The position numbers and the translations under genes were made by a program. A DNA stretch of 64,000 nucleotides. Source: Antedon mediterranea. Taxonomy: Eukaryota; Echinodermata; Crinoidea; Comatulida; Antedonidae. The first letter of the stretch is position 1; the number at the start of each line of letters is the position of its first letter. The DNA lies in assembly GCF_964355755.1 (NCBI RefSeq), contig NC_092678.1:13924922-13988921 (forward strand), given 5' to 3'. The notes beneath the pieces were generated by a model. It was not told where the DNA came from, ran no database searches, and worked only from the letters and a program-made list of their open reading frames with translations. Positions 12,708 to 64,000 of the stretch are shown here, piece by piece.

Positions 12708-14474
12708 TCAATTATAATGTAAAAAACCCATAAACACTGCAGCGTTGTCATCAATATTACACTTCATTGCTTTAAATCTTAAGTCTGTCCTTTTTATCTT
12801 TTTAATTGAGGTAAACCTGTTTCTAACTTTATGTATATTTATTATCTTGGAGTCACAAGGAGAGGTAAATAAACTTTCACTTCTGGCATATACCCTACAT
12901 AAAAAACTAGTAGAGTTCTCATCATAATGATCTTCAATAACTTCACAACAAGTGTCAGCTGATATAATGTAACAGTTATTTGGTGATTTAAATGATATAC
13001 TTGCAGGTGTTTGATTTAAGTTAACTCTTTCCTTCAATACATGTCTTTCACTTATTCTTTTTGCTATTTGCGAAATGGGATGTCTGCCAGACCTTACAAG
13101 TTTCTTTAAAGTGTACAATTATTCAGATTTCCAAACAAGTCGGCTTCATCTGCCAAATGTAAAAGTGTATGAACATTGTATATCAAAAATTCTTCGCCAT
13201 ACAAATTTCGCCCTTTTTCTACAAAACACACTATAACCGATGGGCATATTCCTTGTAGGCAAGTGCTAATTTTGAGTTTAAAAGTATACAGCAAGCTACA
13301 CTCAAGTACATAAAATGCTCATTATTTCTCATGTGAAAGGATTCTACTCAGGACAAGCTTTCCTGTGTAAAGTAAGAATTGGCGAAATTCAATGGCCTTC
13401 CATCTGTCTATTTCTGATAATCCTCTTGGTTTTCTCTGGAAATCATTGGTCACAAATATTTTTAACCCGATTAATTTATCACTCACAGTTTGTACTTGGG
13501 CAGACAAAAAACGAAATCTCAACAATCTGTTTGATCCTTGACCCACATCAACAACATTTTTTTCATAACACCAAGGCAAGTTTGATGCATAAAATCTAAA
13601 GGAAAAGATGTTATCCTACCAATCGGCAAGTCAAGGAATGGTGATTCATCATTGTGATGATGTTCTCTAAACTCTCGTTCCCTAAAATTTTGGTCTGTTC
13701 TTTTTTTTAAGTCTCTTGTTTGCAGGAACAACATTCTGCCATTTTTATGTTGCCCTCTTTGGCTAAATTTATCACACCCGTGATAGCCTGAGTAAAGCTT
13801 TGTACGTTTTACGAACACCCTGGCGGGTGCATCACATATTATGTACCGTATTTTGACTTGAACTCTCATTTCATTGACATCAAGTCCATTTTTTAGAAGA
13901 TGCTGTAAATCAGCTATGGTGTCTGAAAGAAAATCTAAGTTACTAGGTTTTGTAGAACTTTCGGTCAATGCAACAATAAAGACATAAGTTGGTGTCAAAT
14001 TGGCAATACAGCAAAGAACAGGCTAGATTGATGAACTAGAACTTTTAAACAATGGTGCACCATCAATATTAAAACCAATTTCAAGAGTTTTTATGTGAAA
14101 TAGCTTTGGTTTGCAGTAAATGTAAGCTTCTTTTAACACTTCAGTTAATCCAAAGTAGTGATATTTCATGTTTGATTTATTTCCAATTTCTACTGTTCTT
14201 ACTGTACCAAGCAAAGTGCATGCAGTACCAGGTAACTCTGAATGATGTCCAGTTAAAAATAATACTGAATCTTCATCAACTTCATAATTAGAACGGATGA
14301 TACATTCATAATTAGATCTGCTTTTAATGCTACTTTCTTTAACTTCATCAAATTGTCTGGATTTTCATTATCTCTCATTCGTTTTACTGCACGCAATGCT
14401 TTCATACAATTTCTTCTATATCTTTTTCTTTTCTCTTGCTTACTTAGTTCAGAATTCATAGTCAGTCTATCCAA
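12708..14474 (-). pseudogene. Decayed EnSpm/CACTA-like transposase
   Basis: The minus-strand similarity runs through several frames. A basic N-terminal piece (14474-14253) is followed by FNIDGAPLFKSSSSS with a stop near 14025. Next is a 159-codon block (13998-13519) with PSNLDFLSD, ICDAPARVFVKRTK, GYHGCDKFSQRG and PLDFMHQTCLGVMKK. Then come NDFQRKPRGLSEIDRWKA and EFRQFLLYTG (near 13440-13370), YNVHTLLHLADEADLFG (near 13170) and VRSGRHPISQIAKRI (near 13090). These are recurring motifs of animal tnp2/EnSpm-type transposases as I know them. Stops and frameshifts separate the blocks, so the gene is dead. Confidence 0.62.
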
Positions 14475-14567
14475 ATAATTATAATACAGTTAAACTCGCC
14501 GAAGTCAAAAAATCAACGAATTCAAATTTATTTTTATATCACTTCATTTTCCCTATACCTACAATTG

Positions 14568-24719: not shown

Positions 24720-26530
24720 CAATGACAGGAAAAACAGTAGCAGGATACAAAAACAGTTTCTGGGTACAAAACATTTGTAAAAAAAATTGTTTTGTACAAA
24801 AACATTGACTGGGTACAAAAACGGTGGTAGGGTATAAAAACAGTGGCAGGGTACAAAAACAGTGGCAGAGTACACAAACAGTGACAGGGTACAAAAACGG
24901 TAGCAGGGTGGTACAAAAACAGTGGCAGGGTACAAACACGGTGGCAGGGTACAAAGTCGATGGCAGCTGGGTACAAAATCAGTAGCAGGGTACAAAAACA
25001 GTAGCAGGGTACAAAAACAGTGGCAGGGTACAAAAACGGTGACAGGGTACAAAATAGATGGCAGCTGGGTACAAAAACAGTAGAAGGGTACAAAAACAGT
25101 GGCAGGGTACAAAAACGGTGGCAGGGTACAACAACGATGGCAGATGGGTACAAAAACAGTGGCAAGGTACAAAAAGGGTGGCAGGGTACAAAAACGATGG
25201 CAGATGGGTACAAAATCAGTGGCAGGGTACAAAAATAGTGGCAGGGTACAAAAACGGTGGCAGGGTACAAAAACGATGGCAGTTGGGTACAAAAAAATGA
25301 GCAGGGCACAAAAACAGTGGAGGGTACAAAAACGGTGGCAGGGTACAAAAACGATAGCAGCTGGGTACAAAAACAGTGGCAGGGTACAAAAACAGTGGCA
25401 GGATACAAAAACAGTGGCAGAGTACAAAAACAGTGGCAGGATACAAAAACGGTGGCAGGGTACAAAAACGATGACAGCTGGGTACAAAAACAGTGGCAGG
25501 GTACAAAAACGGTGGCAGGGTACAAAAACGGTAGCAGGGTACAAAAACAGTGTCACTGATTTTATACAATAGTTCGCGGGAAATCTGATTGCTGACCTTA
25601 TACAGGAATAAATACTTAGTGGTTGTGATATTCCATTTATTAAATTTAATGGGAAAGTATATCTTTCACAAAATGATGTATGTATGTCAGGCAGTGTTTT
25701 AAAGGCTGGAAGCCCCTGGTGGAAGGGTACAAAAACGATGGCAGCTGGGTACAAAAACAGTGGCAGGGTACAAAAACGGTGGCAGGGTATATACAAAAAC
25801 GATGGCAGGGTACAAAAACGATGGCAGCTGGGTACAAAAACAGTCGCAGGGTACATAAACAGTGGCAAGGTACACAAACAGTGGCAGGGTACAAAAACGA
25901 TGGCAGATGGGTACAAAAACAGTGGCAGGGTACAAAAACGGTGGCAGGGTACAAAATCGATGGCAGCTGGGTACAAAAACAGTTGCAGGGTACAAAAACA
26001 GAGACAGGGTATGACAAGCAGTGGTCTAGGGTACAAACACTTTTGTTGTATACAAAGTGTCTGGGAAAAAAGACGATGACAGCTAGTGGTACAAAAACGG
26101 TGGCAGGGAAACAAAAACGGTGGCAGGGTACAAAAACGGTTGCAGGCTATAAAAACAGTCGCAGGGTACAAAACAGTGGCAGGGTACAAAAACAGTAGCA
26201 GGGTACAAAAACAGTCGCAGGGAACAAAAACGGTGTCAGGGTACAAAAACAGAGACAGGGTACAAAAACTGGGGCATGGTACAAAAACAGTAGCAGGGTA
26301 CAAAAACGGTGGCAGGGTACAAGAACAGTGGCAGGGAACAAAACAGTGTCAGGTACAAAAACAGAGACGGTACGACCAAGCAGTGGTCTAGGATACAAAA
26401 ACTTGTGTTGTATACAAAGTTTCTGGAAAAAAAAGAAGATTGCAGGGATACAAAAACGGTGGCAGGGATACAAAACAGTGGCAGAGTACACAAAATTGTG
26501 TTGTACTAAAACAGTGGCAGGGTAAAAAAC
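24720..26530. repeat. 19/22-bp minisatellite (GTACAAAAACAGTGGCAGG)
   Basis: About 1.8 kb of tandem 19-bp units GTACAAAAACRGTGGCAGG mixed with 22-bp variants ending CAGCTGG, broken by about 150 bp of unique sequence near 25552-25725. The units contain no stop codon on the minus strand, which creates long artificial ORFs (up to 534 codons) rich in YPATVFVPC. Not a gene. Confidence 0.93.
25552..25725 (+). repeat. Internal duplication within the TIR element
   Basis: TCACTGATTTTATACAATAG to AAAGGCTGGAAGCCC repeats sequence from 22841-22915 and 23048-23158 of the same element, and lies inside the minisatellite. It indicates rearrangement or a nested insertion of a deleted copy. Confidence 0.7.
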
Positions 26531-53993: not shown

Positions 53994-54597
53994 TAATTGT
54001 TCATACATGAACAGATTAGTTTTTCGTTACTTGGGCCAGTCAAATATTGAATGTGTGTGTTTGAAATAGTATAAGAAAACATGAGCATCAGGAAGAGTGT
54101 TATTTAGCATAAGTTATATAGGCAAGGGATGACAAGTGATTAGTTACAAGTAAGGGGTTCTATGAACCTTGAATGGGGGAAAATTTTTCACAAAATATAG
54201 TTTCTCTTAGGCCTTCTTTTCTGTTATTGTGAACAATGTAGGCCTATGAATCAATTATTATTATTTATTTAGTTTTAGCTGTTGCCATCACTTCGCTAAC
54301 ACTAATGATAATGTTTACATACGTACAATTTTGCCTAATAAATATTCATATGCTTTATTATTATTCATTAAACTCTTGTATATAGCGCTTAACGCTAAAA
54401 TCTCAGTAATAACAGATCCATGATATTTTGTTCATTTATATTTCAATAATAAAAACAGCAGAATGCTGCAAACAGGAATTGTTTTCCATTTATAAAACGT
54501 AGAGTAAATATCATAGTAAATATTATTTTGTTTAAAATATTTTAGTTTACTAAAAAATATAAATATGATTAACGTTTTTTTTCATATCAATTTTTAG
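53994..54597. other. Upstream region or intron of the right-end gene
   Basis: AT-rich and gene-free. It ends in a pyrimidine-rich TTTTTTTTCATATCAATTTTTAG acceptor-like tract just before the coding exon, so a non-coding 5' exon probably lies further left and was not located. Confidence 0.5.
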
Positions 54598-54842
54598 GAT
54601 GGGCAGCACAGACAGCATTCCGATTGTAAGCCAGGTCAAGTCTCTTATTCAAGTGATTTCAGGGGATAAAGAAGGTGCAAAGAGAACTCAGGAACACTTT
54701 CTCCACACTTTTCCTGTTTTGTCACAGATCACTTCAGCCGTACAAGCCATTGAAGGAGACTCAAAGGGTGCTAAAGAGACACAGGAAGAGTTTGCTGAAA
54801 GTTTAGGGCATTTTGCTGATGGAATTCCCGTTATTGGTCATA
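54598..54842 (+). CDS. Glycine-zipper repeat protein, N-terminal exon part
   Basis: The exon follows a TTTTTAG acceptor (AG 54596-54597), with ATG at 54599. Residues 5-37 and 38-70 are two tandem repeats of about 33 residues: IPIVSQVKSLIQVISGDKEG and FPVLSQITSAVQAIEGDSKG, each followed by AKxTQExF. A third repeat starts IPVIGH at residue 75 and is cut at 54842 by a 7164-bp insertion. In the insertion the frame runs on only eight codons to a stop at 54863-54865. The missing half of repeat 3 begins at 62009. No signal peptide. The repeats look amphipathic; function is unknown to me. Invertebrate multi-copy proteins with PVVGH and glycine-zipper segments seem related, from memory only. Confidence 0.8.
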
Positions 54843-54869
54843 CACAGCAAAATTTGAAATTCTAAGCAA

Positions 54870-56690
54870 GAAAAAAAAATCTTGTTTTAAGAAAAAATTC
54901 TTAAAATAAGTATTTTTTTTCTTGTCAAGATTTAAAATTACTTAAAACAAGAAATAATTTTCTAGAAAAGACACATTTTCTTAAATTAAGTTTTGCAATA
55001 TTCTTGAAAATGCTTATTACAAGAAATATTTTACTTAAAATAAGAAGTCAATATCATTCTCTTCTTATTAAGAATAGTTTTGCTTAAAACAAGATTTGAA
55101 AATACTTAATTTGAAAAGTATTTTACTTAAAATAAGAAATCTATATTATATTTATCCCTATCAAGAATAATTTTTCTTAAATCAAGATTGATGAATTATA
55201 AAAATTACTTAAAACAATCAATATTTTTCTAGGTAAGACAAAGTTTCTTAAATTAGGTTTCGCAATAGTCTTGAAAATACTTGTTTTGAGAAATATTTTA
55301 CTTAAAATAAGAAGTCAATTTCACACTACCCTTATCAAGATTATTTTTACTTGAATCAAGATTCGCAATATTCTTGAAAATGCTTATTACAAGAAATATT
55401 TTACTTAAAATAAGAAGTCAATATCATTCTCTTCTTATTAAGAATAGTTTTGCTTAAAACAAGATTTGAAAATACTTAATTTGAAAAGTATTTTACTTAA
55501 AATAAGAAATCAATATTATATTTATCCCTATCAAGAATAATTTTTCTTAAATCAAGATTGATGAATTCTAAAAATTACTTAAAACAATAAATATTTTTCT
55601 AGGTAAGACAAAGTTTCTTAAATTAGGTTTCGCAATATTCTTAAAAATACTTATTTTGAGAAATGTTTTACTTAAAATAAGAAGTCAATATCATACTATC
55701 TTATCAAGACTATTTTTGCTTAAATTGAGATTCGCAATATTTTAAAAAATACTTATTTTGAGAAATGTTTTACTTAAAATAAGAAGTCAATATCATACTA
55801 TCTTATCAAGACTATTTTTACTTGAATCAAGATTCGCAATATTCTTAAAAATACTTATTTCGAGAAATGTTTTACTTAAAATAAGAAGTCAATATCATAC
55901 TATCTTATCAAGACTATTTTTGCTTAAATTGAGATTCGCAATATTTTAAAAAATACTTATTTTGAAAAATGTTTTACTTAAAATAAGAAGTCAATATCAT
56001 ACTATCCTATCAAGACTATTTTTGCTTGAATTCAGATTCGCAATATTCTGATTTTGAGAAATGTTTTACTTAAAATAAGAAGTCAATATCATACTATCTT
56101 ATCAAGACTATTTTTACTTGAATCAAGATTCACAATATTCTTTAAAATACTTATTTTGAGAAATGTTTTACTTAAAATAAGAAGTCAATATCATACTATC
56201 TTATCAAGACTATTTTTGCTTAAATTGAGATTCGCAATATTTTAAAAAATACTTATTTTGAAAAATGTTTTACTTAAAATAAGAAGTCAATATCATACTA
56301 TCCTATCAAGACTATTTTTGCTTGAATTCAGATTCGCAATATTCTGATTTTGAGAAATGTTTTACTTAAAATAAGAAGTCAATATCATACTATCTTATCA
56401 AGACTATTTTTACTTGAATCAAGATTCGCAATATTCTTTAAAATACTTATTTTGAGAAATGTTTTACTTAAAATAAGAAGTCAATATCATACTATCTTAT
56501 CAAGACTATTTTTGCTTAAATTGAGATTCGCAATATTTTAAAAAATACTTATTTTGAGAAATGTTTTACTTAAGATAAGAAGTCAATATCATACTATATC
56601 CTATCAAGACTATTTTTGCTTGAATTGAAGTCAATTCTATTTTAATATTCTGAAAAATACTTATTTTGAGAAATGTTTTACTTAAAATAG
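54870..56690. repeat. Left tandem array of the TIR element (102-bp unit, 296-bp higher order)
   Basis: GAAGTCAATATCAT recurs at 55681, 55783, 55885, 55987, 56079, 56181, 56283 and 56375: spacings of 102, 102, 102, 92, 102, 102 and 92 give a three-unit 296-bp higher-order repeat in the later part. Units are built from TTACTTAAAATAAG and CTTATTTTGAG, short inverted words related to the element's ends. ORFs of 63 codons here are repeat artefacts. Confidence 0.88.
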
Positions 56691-57126
56691 ATTGTCATCC
56701 TTATATTCACACAACGGTAGAGCAGTTAGCACTTCAGTTTCAACTGATGAAAGAATCTGGGTAATCAAACTGTTTGTGCTTTGAATAATCGATTGCACTG
56801 CAACCTAAAGAAAATAATATTGATTTAATATTTTTTATATTCAAGTTTTAATATGTTTAAAAACTAAGTTGTGCTTTAGTTGGGGAGCTATGCAGCCTAA
56901 CAAAAAAAATGTTATTTGTAACAATGAAATTGGTCACAAAAAATGCAACATAAACTTAGAGTGTATAATGCCTAGGCCTAGGCCTAGTACCCAAGTCCTA
57001 TAGTTACTATAGCTAATAGTCCTGTATAATAACAGTACCAGCAAGGCCTAGGAAATAGACGTATTTCTCTAATAAAAAATAGTTTAAAATGCATAATTGT
57101 TGTAATTTTAAAGCAAAATGGCTTAC

Positions 57127-57372
57127 CTGTGGAATCTTGTTTCTCTCCTTTAATTTTAGTAGAAAGAAATCAGCATTTTTTATACTATTATCTGCTTGTT
57201 CATCCTCTAGTTAGTAGGCCTTCTTGCTGAGCATCAACAAGATAATTAATATTAAACAATCATTAACAGTATAACAATACTAGAATTATCACTACTACTA
57301 TCGTCAGTTGATAAATCATCCCCGTTATAATAGTTTTTTTCTTCATTAACTTCGTCAGTCTCCTAGTCTAGG
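57127..57372 (-). CDS. Exon-like islands on the minus strand inside the element
   Basis: 57206-57127 is bounded by an AG acceptor and a strong GTAAGC donor and reads DEQADNSIKNADFFLLKLKE and a few more residues with no stop. Upstream on the same strand (about 57360-57275) is an acidic stretch EVNEEKNYYNGDD followed by a serine/aspartate run. An ATG reading MPGENEDAN lies at about 57420. This could be the 5' part of a gene carried by the element. The DFFLLKLKE phrase resembles multi-copy transposon-linked proteins, but I cannot name the family. Confidence 0.4.
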
Positions 57373-57458
57373 CCTAGTTCTACTTCATCCTCAATTGGCA
57401 TCCTCGTTTTCTCCAGGCATACTTATATACTGATGTTTCCATCGTCAACTGCAGGAGG

Positions 57459-57752
57459 TTGCCGATTGTTATACTCGTCCTTAAAATGGCGTCTTATGAC
57501 ATGCTTGTAAAACGAATTGTAAATTCCAAAGCTTGCCGGGCAGCGAACCACCAATTCCACATGTTACTCGAAAATTCGGAGTATTTCCATGAATTGAATT
57601 ATAATGCCTTAGCAAATAGGGTAGCAAATACTGTACCTACTTCAGTTTACTGGCACCAACTTATCGCTTTTTTTCGGACTGCAACAAACATGTGTCATTA
57701 TTATTGTCTGTCGTATTACTGTTGGTCCAGACGTTTTATAGATTTGCTTTAA
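57459..57752 (+). CDS. Unrecognised 97-codon ORF in the element core
   Basis: An inner ATG at 57486 gives MASYDMLVKRIVNSKACRAA and continues to 57752. Composition is ordinary for a protein (cysteines, aromatics, HQL) and unlike the flanking arrays. The first ~50 codons are the most convincing. It lies between the divergent exon islands. Function unknown. Confidence 0.35.
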   Translation: MPIVILVLKMASYDMLVKRIVNSKACRAANHQFHMLLENSEYFHELNYNALANRVANTVPTSVYWHQLIAFFRTATNMCHYYCLSYYCWSRRFIDLL

Positions 57753-58011
57753 CCACCATGGAGGTTTATACCTCCATGCTTTAACGTTAAGCAGTATAAT
57801 GACCTTATACATTCTGGGTAAAAGGCCAGCGATAATAGTTGAAAAACAACACTGTGTGTGGTCGATGACCTAGCTCCCGGCGGGATCATGGCCAACGGTT
57901 TTTTAAAGTAATCATTCAAAATCTAGAGTTTGTAAGTACTGTAAAAGACACCTTTCATCGCAATTTATATATTAAATGCTTCAATAGGCCTAGTAAGATT
58001 AGTCTAATATA

Positions 58012-59815
58012 ATGTCGAAGGAAGACGCTTTGTTGAAGATCCGAGAAATAGATGAAGAAGTGGCCAACATTTTAACAGGTTCGTAGGCCTAATAATTATA
58101 TTTTAATCTACCAGCAGTCTAGGCCTAGCCTAGGCTCCTTCCTATTTAGTAATACTGTAGGCCTGGAACTAGTAGGTCTAGGCTAGCCTACTATGCCTGT
58201 ACTGACGGACAGGTGTATAGGTTTAGCTTAGCATTTTAGTTCAGACATTGACAGAGGGGACAAATATTGTCGGACCTATTTCAGCTAGGTATAAGGAAGG
58301 CCTAATAATAGATAATACAATTATAATGTAACAGTAATATTTTGCAATGTAGCCATGAAATATCTACGAAGGATTATATTATATACACATATTCCAATGA
58401 GAAATATAATGACATTTAAAAACACTTCTTTATATTTAATTAATTGTACACACTAAGTAATCCCCGAAGTGATCACATCGATATTGAAACTGCATAACTA
58501 AAATTGTTATATTAAATTTCTTTTTTTATCTTAAATTATTTGTTAGGTAATTGAAGAAGTTCGAAGGATACTAATTATTACTAGGCAAAGAGGAATGAAA
58601 TACAAAAGAAAGCTTTTTAAAAAAGTGCTTAGCAAATTTTTCCAAAGAAGAGTATAATATAGTTTATTTTGGTATTTTAAAGAGAAACACCAGTCCTCCA
58701 TCTGGTAAGTACAGTGTATGTTTTTGTACTTTTATCTATTCATAAATATTTTTATAATGGACCAATGGTAGTGAGGAAAATACGTGTACATATTGTGTAC
58801 GTATTTTTAACAGCTTGGTTCGACTCAAGCTAGTGTCATGCACTCCTCCCTTTGACAACTAAAATTAAATAAATGACTTATGAATATTAATTTTTGACAT
58901 ATTAATGCTCTCCTGGCCAGCCCACCCTTTCCCCTTCCTTTTACATTGACCACCTACAAAACTGTAGGCTACATTATTAAAAATTTGAGCTACAGTATAT
59001 CAAGTTTATGTCCATACATTATTCCACTCATTTAAATAAATTTATATAATATAATGTTTTCAATTTGTTATTTTTGGTTAGGTTCAAAGATAACCCATAT
59101 GTTGTCAAATCTGTCAAACATATTTGTTGGGAAAAACTCATCAAAAAAAGTCTGCCGACCTTGAAGGTATTTAGTGTTTTTTAAAATTTAAAATACAAGT
59201 AACATTATGTACATTAAAAAAAAATATCTTAAAGTGTTTTTTTTTAAATCAAATTTATCTTAGCTTAAAATTCGAGGTATATACTATGTTTACAATAATT
59301 TATTAAAATCAAACAATTAAACAAAATTTACATTTAATTGTATGATTGTTATTATAAACATTGATACAGAATAAAAACATCAATCAGGATTGAGCACCGT
59401 TTTGCCTAAATAGTAATATTAAAAATAAATTTAGACCCTAATAATTTAACTAAAAATAATAGATACAGCCAGGCCTGTCTTTGGGATCGGTATAAACAGG
59501 GCAAAGTTTGTGATTAAAAAGTTCAAATGCATATTCCACCCACCCTTATGTCTTATAATGTAAAATTATTCTTACCACCGTTCTAATATTGCGTCATGTT
59601 TTTGTGTTTACCGCCCCAGATATAGGACTCTAAAACCACACCGTACCCAATTAGTTGATGATGTTACACATATTTTAAATACAGTAATAACTAAAACTAT
59701 ATTAATCTCTTTTCATTTTTAGGAACATGAATAAAGATCCAGAATCCTGGTCTTCACGCCGATCAGGTAATATGCCGGTATTGCTTTTGGACACAGAAAT
59801 GGCCTACATTAAAGT
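58012..59815 (+). CDS. Exon-like islands on the plus strand inside the element
   Basis: ATG 58012 opens MSKEDALLKIREIDEEVANI up to a GT donor at 58079. Further islands: 58556-58650 (VRRILIITRQRGMKYKRKLF, then a stop), a short piece ending at a strong GTAAGT donor (58703), 59082-59165 (FKDNPYVVKSVKHICWEKLI, followed by GTATTT), and 59725-59815 (NMNKDPESWSSRRSG then a stop). Intron-like spacers carry T-rich acceptors. The whole resembles a small multi-exon gene, basic in its middle. Family not recognised; it could be the element's own regulator or a captured gene. Confidence 0.4.
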
Positions 59816-60479
59816 TTAGCAAACAATTCTAACTACAAAGAAAGCAAAATTAGATGAGGCTCTAGTTACTCTCCTCTCCACTTTTTACCTTCTGGATTTC
59901 GATTATCCAAAATGAAAAGAAGTAGGCCTCACTATCCTTTAACAGTTAGTGATTTGTGATGAAAACACACCTGTACACTTGACAAAGGCTGTTGAATCAT
60001 CATTAGTATACTACATTAATAAATTTAAAGACACCTAATAGTTTAAAGCCCAGGTGCGGGAGAAGAATTTTACGAAATTTGTATTTTACCATTTTAATGT
60101 TTTTAAGTTTTCTTTTGATGGCATTTTATTATTAATAAAAACAAGTTTGTTTTAAAGAAGTTGTATATATTATTGTACCTAATGTCATGTAAATTGTAGT
60201 TCTTAATGAAAATAACAGTATTGTTAATATTATGTTTTATAACATTCTTGAATTTATTTGTTTAAGTAAAATATTACTTAAAATGAGTATTCATTTATCG
60301 TTCTTAAAATAAATTTTTAGTGATTTATATTTTATAGAATTCTTGTTTCAAGCAATTTTTTTCCCAATATAAGTAAGAATTTACGAATTTTAATTTGATA
60401 GAATTCTTGTTTCAAGCAATACTTTTCTTAAAATAAGTAAACATTTACTGGTTTTTATTTGATAGACTTCTTGTTTACT

Positions 60480-61720
60480 TATTTTAAAAAAAGTTTTGCT
60501 TGAAACAAGAATTCTACAAATAAAAATCGGAATATTCTTACTTATTTTAAGAAATATATTGCTTGAAACAAGAAAACTAAAAATATAAATCGGAATATTC
60601 TTACTTATTTTAAGAAAAATATTGCTTAAAACAAGAATTCTAAAAAATACAAACCGGAATATTCTTACTTATTTTAAGAAAAATATTGCTTGAAACAAGA
60701 ATTCTACAAATAAAAATCGGAATATTCTTACTTATTTTAAGAAATATATTGCTTGAAACAAGAATTCAAAAAATACAAATCGGAATATTCTTACTTATTT
60801 TAAGAAAAATATTGCTTGAAACAAGAATTCAAAAAATACAAATCGGAATATTCTTACTTATTTTAAGAAAAATATTGCTTGAAACAAGAATTCAAAAAAT
60901 ACAAATCGGAATATTCTTACTTATTTTAAGAAATATATTGCTTGAAACAAGAATATTAAAATTAAAAATCGGAATATTCTTACTTATTTTAAGAAAAATA
61001 TTGCTTAAAACAAGAATTCTAAAAAATACAAATCGGAATATTCTTACTTATTTTAAGAAAAATATTGCTTGAAACAAGAATTCTACAAATAAAAATCGGA
61101 ATATTCTTACTTATTTTAAGAAATATTTTGCTTGAAACAAGAATTCAAAAAATACAAATCGGAATATTCTTACTTATTTTAAGAAAAAAATTGCTTGAAA
61201 CAAGAATTCAAAAAATACAAATCGGAATATTCTTACTTATTTTAAGAAAAATATTGCTTGAAACAAGAATTCAAAAAATACAAATCGGAATATTCTTACT
61301 TATTTTAAGAAAAATATTGCTTGAAACAAGAATTCAAAAAATAAAAATCGGAATATTCTTACTTATTTTAAGAAATATCTTGCTTGAAACAAGAATTAAA
61401 AAAAATACAAATCGGAATATTCTTACTTATTTTAAGAAATATATTGCTTGAAACAAGAATTCTATAAAATACAAATCGGAATATTCTTACTTATTTTAAG
61501 AAATATCTTGCTTGAAACAAGAATTCAAAAAAATACAAATCGGAATATTCTTACTTATTTTAAGAAATATATTGCTTGAAACAAGAATTCTATAAAATAC
61601 AAATCGGAATATTCTTACTTATTTTAAGAAATATATTGCTTGAAACAAGAAAACTAAAAATATAAATCGGAATATTCTTACTTATTTTAAGAAAAATATT
61701 GCTTGAAACAAGAATTCTAT
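60480..61720. repeat. Right tandem array of the TIR element (63-bp unit)
   Basis: ATCGGAATATTCTTACTTAT recurs every 63 bp (for example ends at 60720, 60783, 60846, 60909, 60972), about 19 units. Each unit contains TTGCTTGAAACAAGAATTC, a near palindrome. Because 63 is a multiple of three, the array gives 128-codon ORFs with a 21-residue period; they are artefacts. Confidence 0.92.
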
Positions 61721-62008
61721 TTTAAAAAATCGATAAATTGTTACTTATTTTAAGGCAGATACTGCTTAAAACAAGAATGAAAAAAGCAATTAAATTCTTG
61801 GTAAGAATATTGTTCTTAAAGTATTATTTCTTGGTAAGAATAATTTTCTTGATAAGAATTTGTGTGATTCTTGTTAAGAATTTTACGATTCTTGGTAAGC
61901 CAAAAAGTATTGAAATACGGACAAGTCAAAATTTACTTGTTTCAAGAAATATTTTGCTTGAAACAAGTTTTTTTTTTCTTAAAACAAGAATCAGAATTTT
62001 GCTGTGTA

Positions 62009-64000
62009 TAATAGGAGCGGTCGAATATGCTACTGGACACAAAGCGGCAGGCGATGCTTCTATGAAGGCTGCCAGTAGAACATTGGGTGTTATTGCAGGA
62101 GGAGCTGCTGGTTTTTTTGCTGGAGGGCCGGCTGGGGCATTCCTGGGAGGTGTTGCAGCTGGAGCTGCAATGGATGGCATCATCACGGGAGTTGATTCAG
62201 CAGTTCATCATAGATACACCCCTTATGGTGAAGTATCAGTTGTGACAAATATGGTCAATGGTCACTATGATCCTGGAGAAGAGTTCGACTTTGTGGCTGG
62301 TATCGGTTTTGATGGACTAGCAGGTCTTGCAGAGGCAGGTGAAGGTAGCTTGACGCAACTTACATCTGAGCATTTCACTGGAAAGCCAATCTACCGTGTC
62401 ATGGATGACGATGCAGGTAATAAGGCCATAGCGACTCAGGCAATTCCTACACCCCACAAAGGAGGCGAGATTTGGATTGCTGAAAGCACTGAGCATACAC
62501 GTGCTTTTATAAGTGGCGACCCTGTAAATCGCAGTAGTGTCGTTGAAATAAAAATTAATAAAGCATGGTATACAAAGATGCGAGAAGACAACCTTGTTCA
62601 TCAAAATGGAGCCAAAGATGTTGCAATCAATGGCAAAAATGTGTGGAATAATGAAGCAGGAGGAGCTGGAGCTGGTTCTACAGGCAATAGGCCCGGTCAC
62701 GGTGCTGTCAACATCGGTGTTAAGCATGTACAATATAATAGAATATGGGGAGGGGGTAGAAAGGAGGGCGGTTTTAGTGCTTTTAGAAAGAAACTGGAAA
62801 CATTCACAGAAGCACTTGAAACTGATTTGTCTGTAGGTGATCACCAAGTATCACCTGAATTTAAGAAAGCTCTATTCGATGTTTTTGGCTCAAAAAAGAA
62901 TGTTTTGATTGTTGACAAAGGCACAGGACTGGCCAACCGTTTAAGAGCGGAATTCCCCTATATGCAGTTGGCAACTGATGCTGCTGACAAAATTGAAATC
63001 CAGCTTGATCCATTTCATGAAATGGCTGAGAGATTAAGGCCTACAAAAAACAAAGTATCTGTTAAGGAAACAGATATTATTCATGTCAAGGCATTACTGG
63101 AAACAATTGACAAAACCGTAAAAGATGTATGTGGAAATGACAACCTTGCTGCGTTAAACAGTCATGTGAAATCTATTCGTCTCATCAATCCTTGGAGTTG
63201 GAGATACAAAACTGGTGCTATGTTCAAGAATTGGACTGCAAAACACCCAGAAAAATTTGGTTCAGCCGTTATCAGCAGTTGGGGATTGGATAACCCTCAA
63301 ACTGAAGTAAGAAAAAAAACAAAATACGTAGAAGAACCTTTACAATCAGATTACACTCTTGCAAACACAACGCAGGGATACGAAGCACCAGCAAATATTG
63401 TAATCAATGGACGTACAAATTCTAAGGGACCATTAATGAACAAAGCAATAACTGTAGGTGGACTTCCCGTGACAAGAATTCAAGTTGAATGTATTGTGAA
63501 GATAAAAGAAGCTAGTAATGCTCAAAACATGAACGTAGTTTTAGATGGTCGATTGTATCTTCGTCTTCGCAAACATGATTGTTGGATTACTGAATTTCAC
63601 GATATTGACATCTGTGGTAGCATTAATTCAACTACTGAGAGACAAATCTCCTATGATGACAGCAGTGTTGGTCTTGAATATATTGGTCTTGGGGGAAGTA
63701 TTGAGTTGTGGTGTACAGTTGGGACAGGCATGGAGCTCACTTGTAAAAACCTATCGTGCCGTATAACCTATGGTTCTCCGCAGTTCCGTTTCGAAAAAAG
63801 TGGTGACTATTCCCACATTATCTTCAGTCCTACTCGGAATGTGTCCTTAGACGACAATAGTGGACAAAAAATTACTCTCTACACAGAGCGAATTCCTCTT
63901 GGTGTAGCAACGATTAAAGGTATACATGTAAATTTTGAAGCAAAAGATCAAGATTGGGGAGAAAAAAATGGCGAAGTATATCTTCGTATTTGGCATAATG
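62009..64000 (+). CDS. Glycine-zipper repeat protein, main exon (runs off the window)
   Basis: Open without a stop from 62009 to the window end (664 codons), in the frame that continues the exon at 54598-54842. It completes the third repeat (GAVEYATGHKAAGDASMKAA). Next is a glycine-zipper segment VIAGGAAGFFAGGPAGAFLG and VAAGAAMDG (about 62080-62170), which could insert in or pack against membrane. Later parts are HFTGKPIYRVMDDD (near 62370), a glycine/alanine linker AGGAGAGSTGNRPGHG (near 62660), a helical region, and from about 63430 a beta-rich domain (LDGRLYLRLRKHDCW) whose pattern seems to restart near 63840 (NGEVYLRIWHN). No catalytic motif is certain. Intactness implies recent constraint. 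Splicing across the insertion is possible (GT 54837, AG 62013-62014). Confidence 0.82.

Follow-up and report, generated by a model that had tools for sequence, protein, structure and literature searches.

The window analysed here is a 64,000-nucleotide stretch of the Antedon mediterranea genome (C9:13924922-13988921, G000; 354 Mb in 18 contigs). Towards its right-hand end lies an uncharacterised gene, present in three copies on one contig, whose coding exon is split in this copy by a 7164-bp DNA transposon; the two other copies are insert-free paralogues. The features of the locus, in window coordinates, are as follows.

54596-54597, forward strand: splice-acceptor-like AG before the left exon part, conserved in both paralogues.
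54599-54842, forward strand: left part of the interrupted exon, from the ATG to the insertion (81 codons), including the left TA copy.
54837-54838, forward strand: GT in the host flank, a weak candidate donor (TTG/GTCATA).
54841-54842, forward strand: left copy of the TA target-site duplication, read from the window and the empty-site comparison.
54843-62006, forward strand: the 7164-bp transposon, a non-autonomous DNA element whose family counts 59 left and 59 right ends genome-wide.
54843-54854, forward strand: left terminal inverted repeat (TIR) CACAGCAAAATT, 12 bp, exact match.
54863-54865, forward strand: TAA, the first in-frame stop met when the host frame is read on into the element, closing an 88-codon open reading frame (ORF) at 54599-54865.
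54926-56689, forward strand: left subterminal tandem repeat arrays (unit of ~102 bp plus longer periods).
57486-57752, forward strand: internal ORF common to copies, 88 codons from its ATG.
60324-61778, forward strand: right subterminal tandem repeat arrays (unit of ~63 bp).
61995-62006, reverse strand: right TIR CACAGCAAAATT, 12 bp, exact match.
62007-62008, forward strand: right copy of the TA duplication, read in the same way as the left.
62009-64000 and beyond the window, forward strand: right part of the interrupted exon, whose stop codon ends at window-equivalent 65691 (L009:3713).
62013-62014, forward strand: AG in the host flank, proposed acceptor (AATAG; AAAAG in both paralogues).

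We consider it highly probable that this arrangement reflects a very recent event in which a CACTA/EnSpm-like non-autonomous element, duplicating 2 bp (TA), entered one of the three paralogues within its single large coding exon. The initial annotation, made from the window alone, had described a 7164-bp element, bounded by inverted ends and a TA duplication, that splits a coding exon, and this was confirmed at 54843-62006. The TIR pattern, at no more than one mismatch, has two matches in the whole window, both exact; shuffled windows gave a mean of 0.80 matches, with at least two in 18 of 100 shuffles. Since the TIR matches alone lie within chance, weight is placed on copies elsewhere in the genome and on empty sites. 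No Rfam match was found in window 54000-63000.

Both paralogues carry the empty-site DNA TTCTTGGTCATATAAAAGGAGCGA, at C9:8576253 and C9:8607251, and the window shows, in order, TTATTGGTCATA, the element, TA and TAATAGGAGCGG; the comparison shows where the element went in, that TA was duplicated and that the position was exonic. The paralogue at C9:8572585-8576508 encodes the annotated A. mediterranea protein P0002 (1308 residues, 100%), while that at C9:8603592-8607506 matches at 94%; both are stop-free and read through the site as TTGGTCATATAAAAGGAGCG. P0002 aligns without a break to either exon part, with identity at 78 of 81 residues on the left and 1109 of 1225 on the right, and protein P0003 of Anneissia japonica likewise reads through the site uninterrupted. 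The empty site deduced earlier by removing the element and one TA, with the reading frame kept, is proved by the two insert-free paralogues and by these two proteins. Neither paralogue has an intron at the insertion place, which was thus plain exon before the element arrived; this absence of a conventional intron does not refute the earlier suggestion that the element may itself behave as one. To the right, the frame is open from 62011 for 1226 codons, with its first in-frame Met at codon 18, so that the 664 clean codons counted originally had been limited by the window end. One codon after the site, a point difference gives Ile in the window and Lys in the paralogues. The host protein and its relatives gave nothing above cut-offs in Pfam, and a PDB search by sequence gave nothing credible (best E 0.096). 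A segment is shared with the coral protein P0004.

Turning to the family as a whole, the left-end pattern at up to three mismatches gave 128 genome matches (controls 32 and 37), from which the 59 with the exact 21 terminal bases of the family were kept and the remainder dropped; the right-end pattern was found at 59 places (controls 0 and 0). Ends could be paired for 54 elements, with a median length of 7044 bp and a range of 3548-19477 bp. The dinucleotide preceding the 59 left ends is TA in 37, CA in 12, TG in 6, TT in 2, AG in 1 and CG in 1; pyrimidine-purine targets (TA, CA, TG and CG) thus make up most of them. Eighteen of the 36 other TA copies, selected for the left TA, were read in 10-kb stretches, and TA follows the right end in all 15 with both ends in the DNA read (for one, L027, the right end was recognised by the 12-base TIR only). 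Among the 22 non-TA copies, the left dinucleotide is repeated at the right in 20 of 20 tested (11 CA, 6 TG, 2 TT and 1 AG). The TA duplication reported initially therefore stands at the window copy and fails as a family rule: the family target duplication is 2 bp, with TA preferred and not required.

The element is non-autonomous. No transposase was seen by eye among the ORFs of at least 110 codons inside the 18 copies, not all of which are complete. The one frame of these copies scanned with Pfam, 124 codons long and shared between them, gave no match, and for its 88-codon part 62 of 67 genome matches fall inside the 59 family spans; this 88-codon ORF, the sole one common to copies and itself without a Pfam match, was set aside as an internal gene. 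A 19.5-kb copy on C4 (C4:24799206-24818684) is a possible autonomous partner; the longest open frame in the 4 kb of its inside that were read is 72 codons. A literature search found no publication on this element family, which is not proof of absence in print.

By its anatomy, the element is putatively CACTA/EnSpm-like. Subterminal repeat arrays are a trait of CACTA elements, as are TIRs that begin CACTA or a close variant and short target duplications of 2-3 bp (2 bp being reported in animals); the ends CACAGCAAAATT share CAC with CACTA. The window copy carries arrays at both ends (~102-bp unit left, ~63-bp unit right) and, like the 20 non-TA and 15 other TA copies tested, a short target duplication of 2 bp. 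Tc1/mariner elements show a strict TA target duplication, and the non-TA duplications (CA, TG, TT and AG) rule out that family. Animal CACTA (En/Spm, CMC) elements, such as the TRC elements of DeMarco et al. 2006 (PMC1636069), resemble the element in their short TIR and 2-bp target duplication, the latter being described there for 7 of 14 SmTRC1 copies. The element differs from them in that its TIR begins CACAG, not CACTA or CCC, and in that no transposase was seen in the 18 copies read. The superfamily is defined by a DDE transposase of the Transposase_21 (tnp2) kind, encoded by the element or by a partner sharing its ends. Related transposases are present in the genome; of the 29 places listed for them, none falls within any of the 59 family spans.

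The window copy was inserted very recently. When 13 copies, that of the window among them, are aligned over their unique middle (six of the 18 were dropped: L018, L024, L027 and L028, in which the anchor is missing, and L021 and L022, in which the stretch exceeds 4.2 kb), pairwise distances are 0.002-0.012, and over 3663 sites the window copy has 1 private substitution, the fewest of all, versus 6-15 in the other 12. With a stop-creating fraction of ~0.04 among substitutions in the exon, a hand calculation gives ~0.04 stops expected in the right exon since insertion, or 0.22 at the Poisson upper limit. A clean downstream frame is therefore expected from the youth of the copy and is no argument for splicing. 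Of the two readings offered initially for that frame, an insertion either very young or removed from RNA, the first is borne out and the second is left unsupported. The divergence between the paralogues is far older than the insertion; in coding DNA the window copy is ~93-95% identical to the other two.

The family has entered coding frames elsewhere. We examined 54 of the 59 loci (16 on both sides, 18 on the left only and 20 on the right only, 5 of these 20 subsequently on both), taking as a long frame more than 300 non-transposon codons open across the empty site, a threshold that short exons of multi-exon genes would escape. Three loci have such a frame: the window, L025 and L069/L073. At L025 (C4:32998159-33008158), the element lies antisense within the frame of a URGCP-type, GVIN-like GTPase (Pfam URGCP_GTPase, 8.7e-120), open for 800 codons across the empty site, or 1013 with more flank. 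At L069/L073 (C11:15930913-15938967), it lies antisense in a papain-like protease frame of 306 codons, of which one piece matches Peptidase_C1 (5.5e-5) and the other has no match; the target duplication there is CA in element orientation. L020, a possible shorter case with 136 open codons before the site and 5 after it on the sense strand (141) and a weak DUF4806 match below cut-off, was not counted. Shorter frames were rejected as genes: L023 (238 codons) was taken as a retroelement, the next downstream frame matching Exo_endo_phos (2.4e-12), and L055/L072 (204 codons) and L067/L074 (166 codons) were taken by eye as retroelement, with no Pfam match above cut-off.

The intact frame raises the question of whether the element is removed from RNA as a nascent intron. 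Use of the host GT at 54837 and AG at 62013-62014 would splice out the element together with 12 host bases and leave a protein four residues shorter, an outcome we regard as very improbable. The pair is indeed present and in frame, as the initial annotation had pointed out, and the acceptor context is moderately good: scored with metazoan splice-site weights, it is exceeded by 273 of the 3553 AGs in the window, which places it in the better tenth, and an A-to-T difference from the paralogues turns its AAG into TAG. The donor GTCATA, however, is outscored on the same weights by 1716 of 3519 window GTs, having neither G at +5 nor a purine at +3. Moreover, an in-frame GT and AG, each no more than 6 bases away, flank 15 of the 201 TA dinucleotides of the same exon (22 of 201 at up to 10 bases); the coincidence is thus a 7-11% event, and the pair is no more than chance gives. 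Splicing would also remove GHII from the third repeat of the protein, where P0002 and P0003 both retain the corresponding GHIK, and the intact exon is already accounted for by youth. Removal in this way would make the insertion introner-like, with the target supplying both splice sites. Although L025 likewise has an in-frame host pair, L069/L073 has none, at two of the three loci the element runs antisense to the gene, and the distances to the nearest GT and AG in gene sense differ among the three loci; there is thus no fixed splice-site position relative to the element ends, which an introner-like family would show. Insertions of the plant elements Ds and dSpm in exons are partly spliced from pre-mRNA, as shown on RNA; these too are cut-and-paste elements lying in exons with possible cryptic splice sites at or near their ends, whereas in the present case splicing is conceivable. 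Introners (PMC9860276) are families of DNA elements alike in sequence and present in many copies, with TIRs and duplications; some, described in Florenciella sp., draw on the insertion site for both of their splice sites. The element resembles them in its many copies, TIRs and duplications, and differs in its 7-kb length, introner family medians being 30-654 nt in the same source (PMC9860276), and in that only 3 of 54 element loci lie in long non-transposon open frames, with no constant splice offset. Intron behaviour is a remote possibility for the element, and slightly less probable still is the full proposition that a fresh 7-kb CACTA-like transposon is spliced out through a chance host GT and AG as a very recent animal intron gain. 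If true, the locus would offer a dated intron gain of a kind rare in animals, and the new intron could be studied by comparison with two paralogues on this contig that lack it.

A possible, if less likely, history is that the window copy, a duplicate that had lost its 5' exon or promoter, was dying when the element arrived, and that the insertion was neutral; this would be compatible with the explanation we prefer. The match to the paralogues ends 27-50 bp upstream of the window ATG (window 54572 or 54549) yet runs ~1.2 kb beyond the stop codon. Upstream, however, the paralogues themselves consist of repeats, which stay in register between the two for just ~220 bp, so that loss of a 5' exon is not established. 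Amino-acid-changing (dN) and silent (dS) divergences, computed with an experimental Biopython module, are dN 0.048 and dS 0.082 between the window copy and its closest paralogue, 0.056 and 0.083 with the other, and 0.029 and 0.067 between the two insert-free paralogues. Codons that changed on the window branch, counted together with those on the stem of the other two, comprise 78 with an amino-acid change and 28 silent, compared with 20:23 and 38:22 on the other two branches (Fisher p 0.002, 0.22 and, against both pooled, 0.009). With P0003 as outgroup, 57 of the residues changed in this way could be aligned, of which 25 put the change on the window branch, 10 put it on the stem and 22 are undecided. 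These counts would fit decay, but the excess of amino-acid changes could be adaptive, and the right exon holds 1226 codons without a stop or frameshift despite 196 differences from the closest paralogue. The window copy thus evolved under looser constraint, or its change was adaptive, and its frame stayed open until recently. An assembly artefact joining the element to a gene fragment is scarcely credible: the locus was read from one assembly only, but the exact 2-bp duplication stands at a site that is intact in the paralogues, matching duplications were found at 35 of 35 other loci tested on both sides, and both exon halves differ from both paralogues.

From the sequence, we propose that the window locus most likely represents an ordinary gene-breaking insertion rather than a spliced element. 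Some points weigh against the recent CACTA-like insertion as we describe it. No transposase partner with the same ends was found, so the CACTA label is by anatomy only; the youth of the copy is based on one unmutated stretch of one copy, a count of 1 with wide Poisson limits; and a frame open through ~5% paralogue divergence indicates coding until recently, so that a rescued transcript would be useful. In the mechanism we propose, a cut-and-paste element would have landed in the coding exon of an uncharacterised crinoid gene and duplicated TA. A transcript entering the element would meet a stop after 7 extra codons, and at most an N-terminal fragment would therefore be made from this copy; alternatively, its RNA may be removed by decay or early polyadenylation. 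The window copy is thus probably a null or strongly reduced allele. The clean frame downstream reflects how little time the copy has had to mutate. A promoter inside the element, with the Met at codon 18 of the right part, might also give rise to a truncated product; expression of the window copy is uncertain in any case, given that the paralogue match ends 27-50 bp before the ATG. The insertion may still be a polymorphism, and any loss of function could be compensated by the two intact paralogues. As an ordinary event, and together with the URGCP-type GTPase and papain-like protease frames, the window gene illustrates how a CACTA-like family, low in copy number and active recently, enters coding frames in a crinoid; as a clean and dated case it would be of use in studies of transposon load and gene death.

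Two further features of the window lie away from the interrupted gene. A decayed CACTA-like transposase, weakly related to Transposase_21 and containing several stops, is found on the reverse strand at 12711-14489. It was rejected as the mobility source (window ~12.7-14.5 kb) since it belongs to another family: around its intact relative, L077, the 9 kb that were read contain no CACAGC ends. Two relatives of the decayed copy, at C4:23787246 and C8:7985130, are open frames of 684 residues identical in protein sequence, which suggests very recent activity of that other family. Finally, a long array of a 19-bp unit in ~79 diverged copies occupies 24794-26368, where both strands carry long open frames that overlap.

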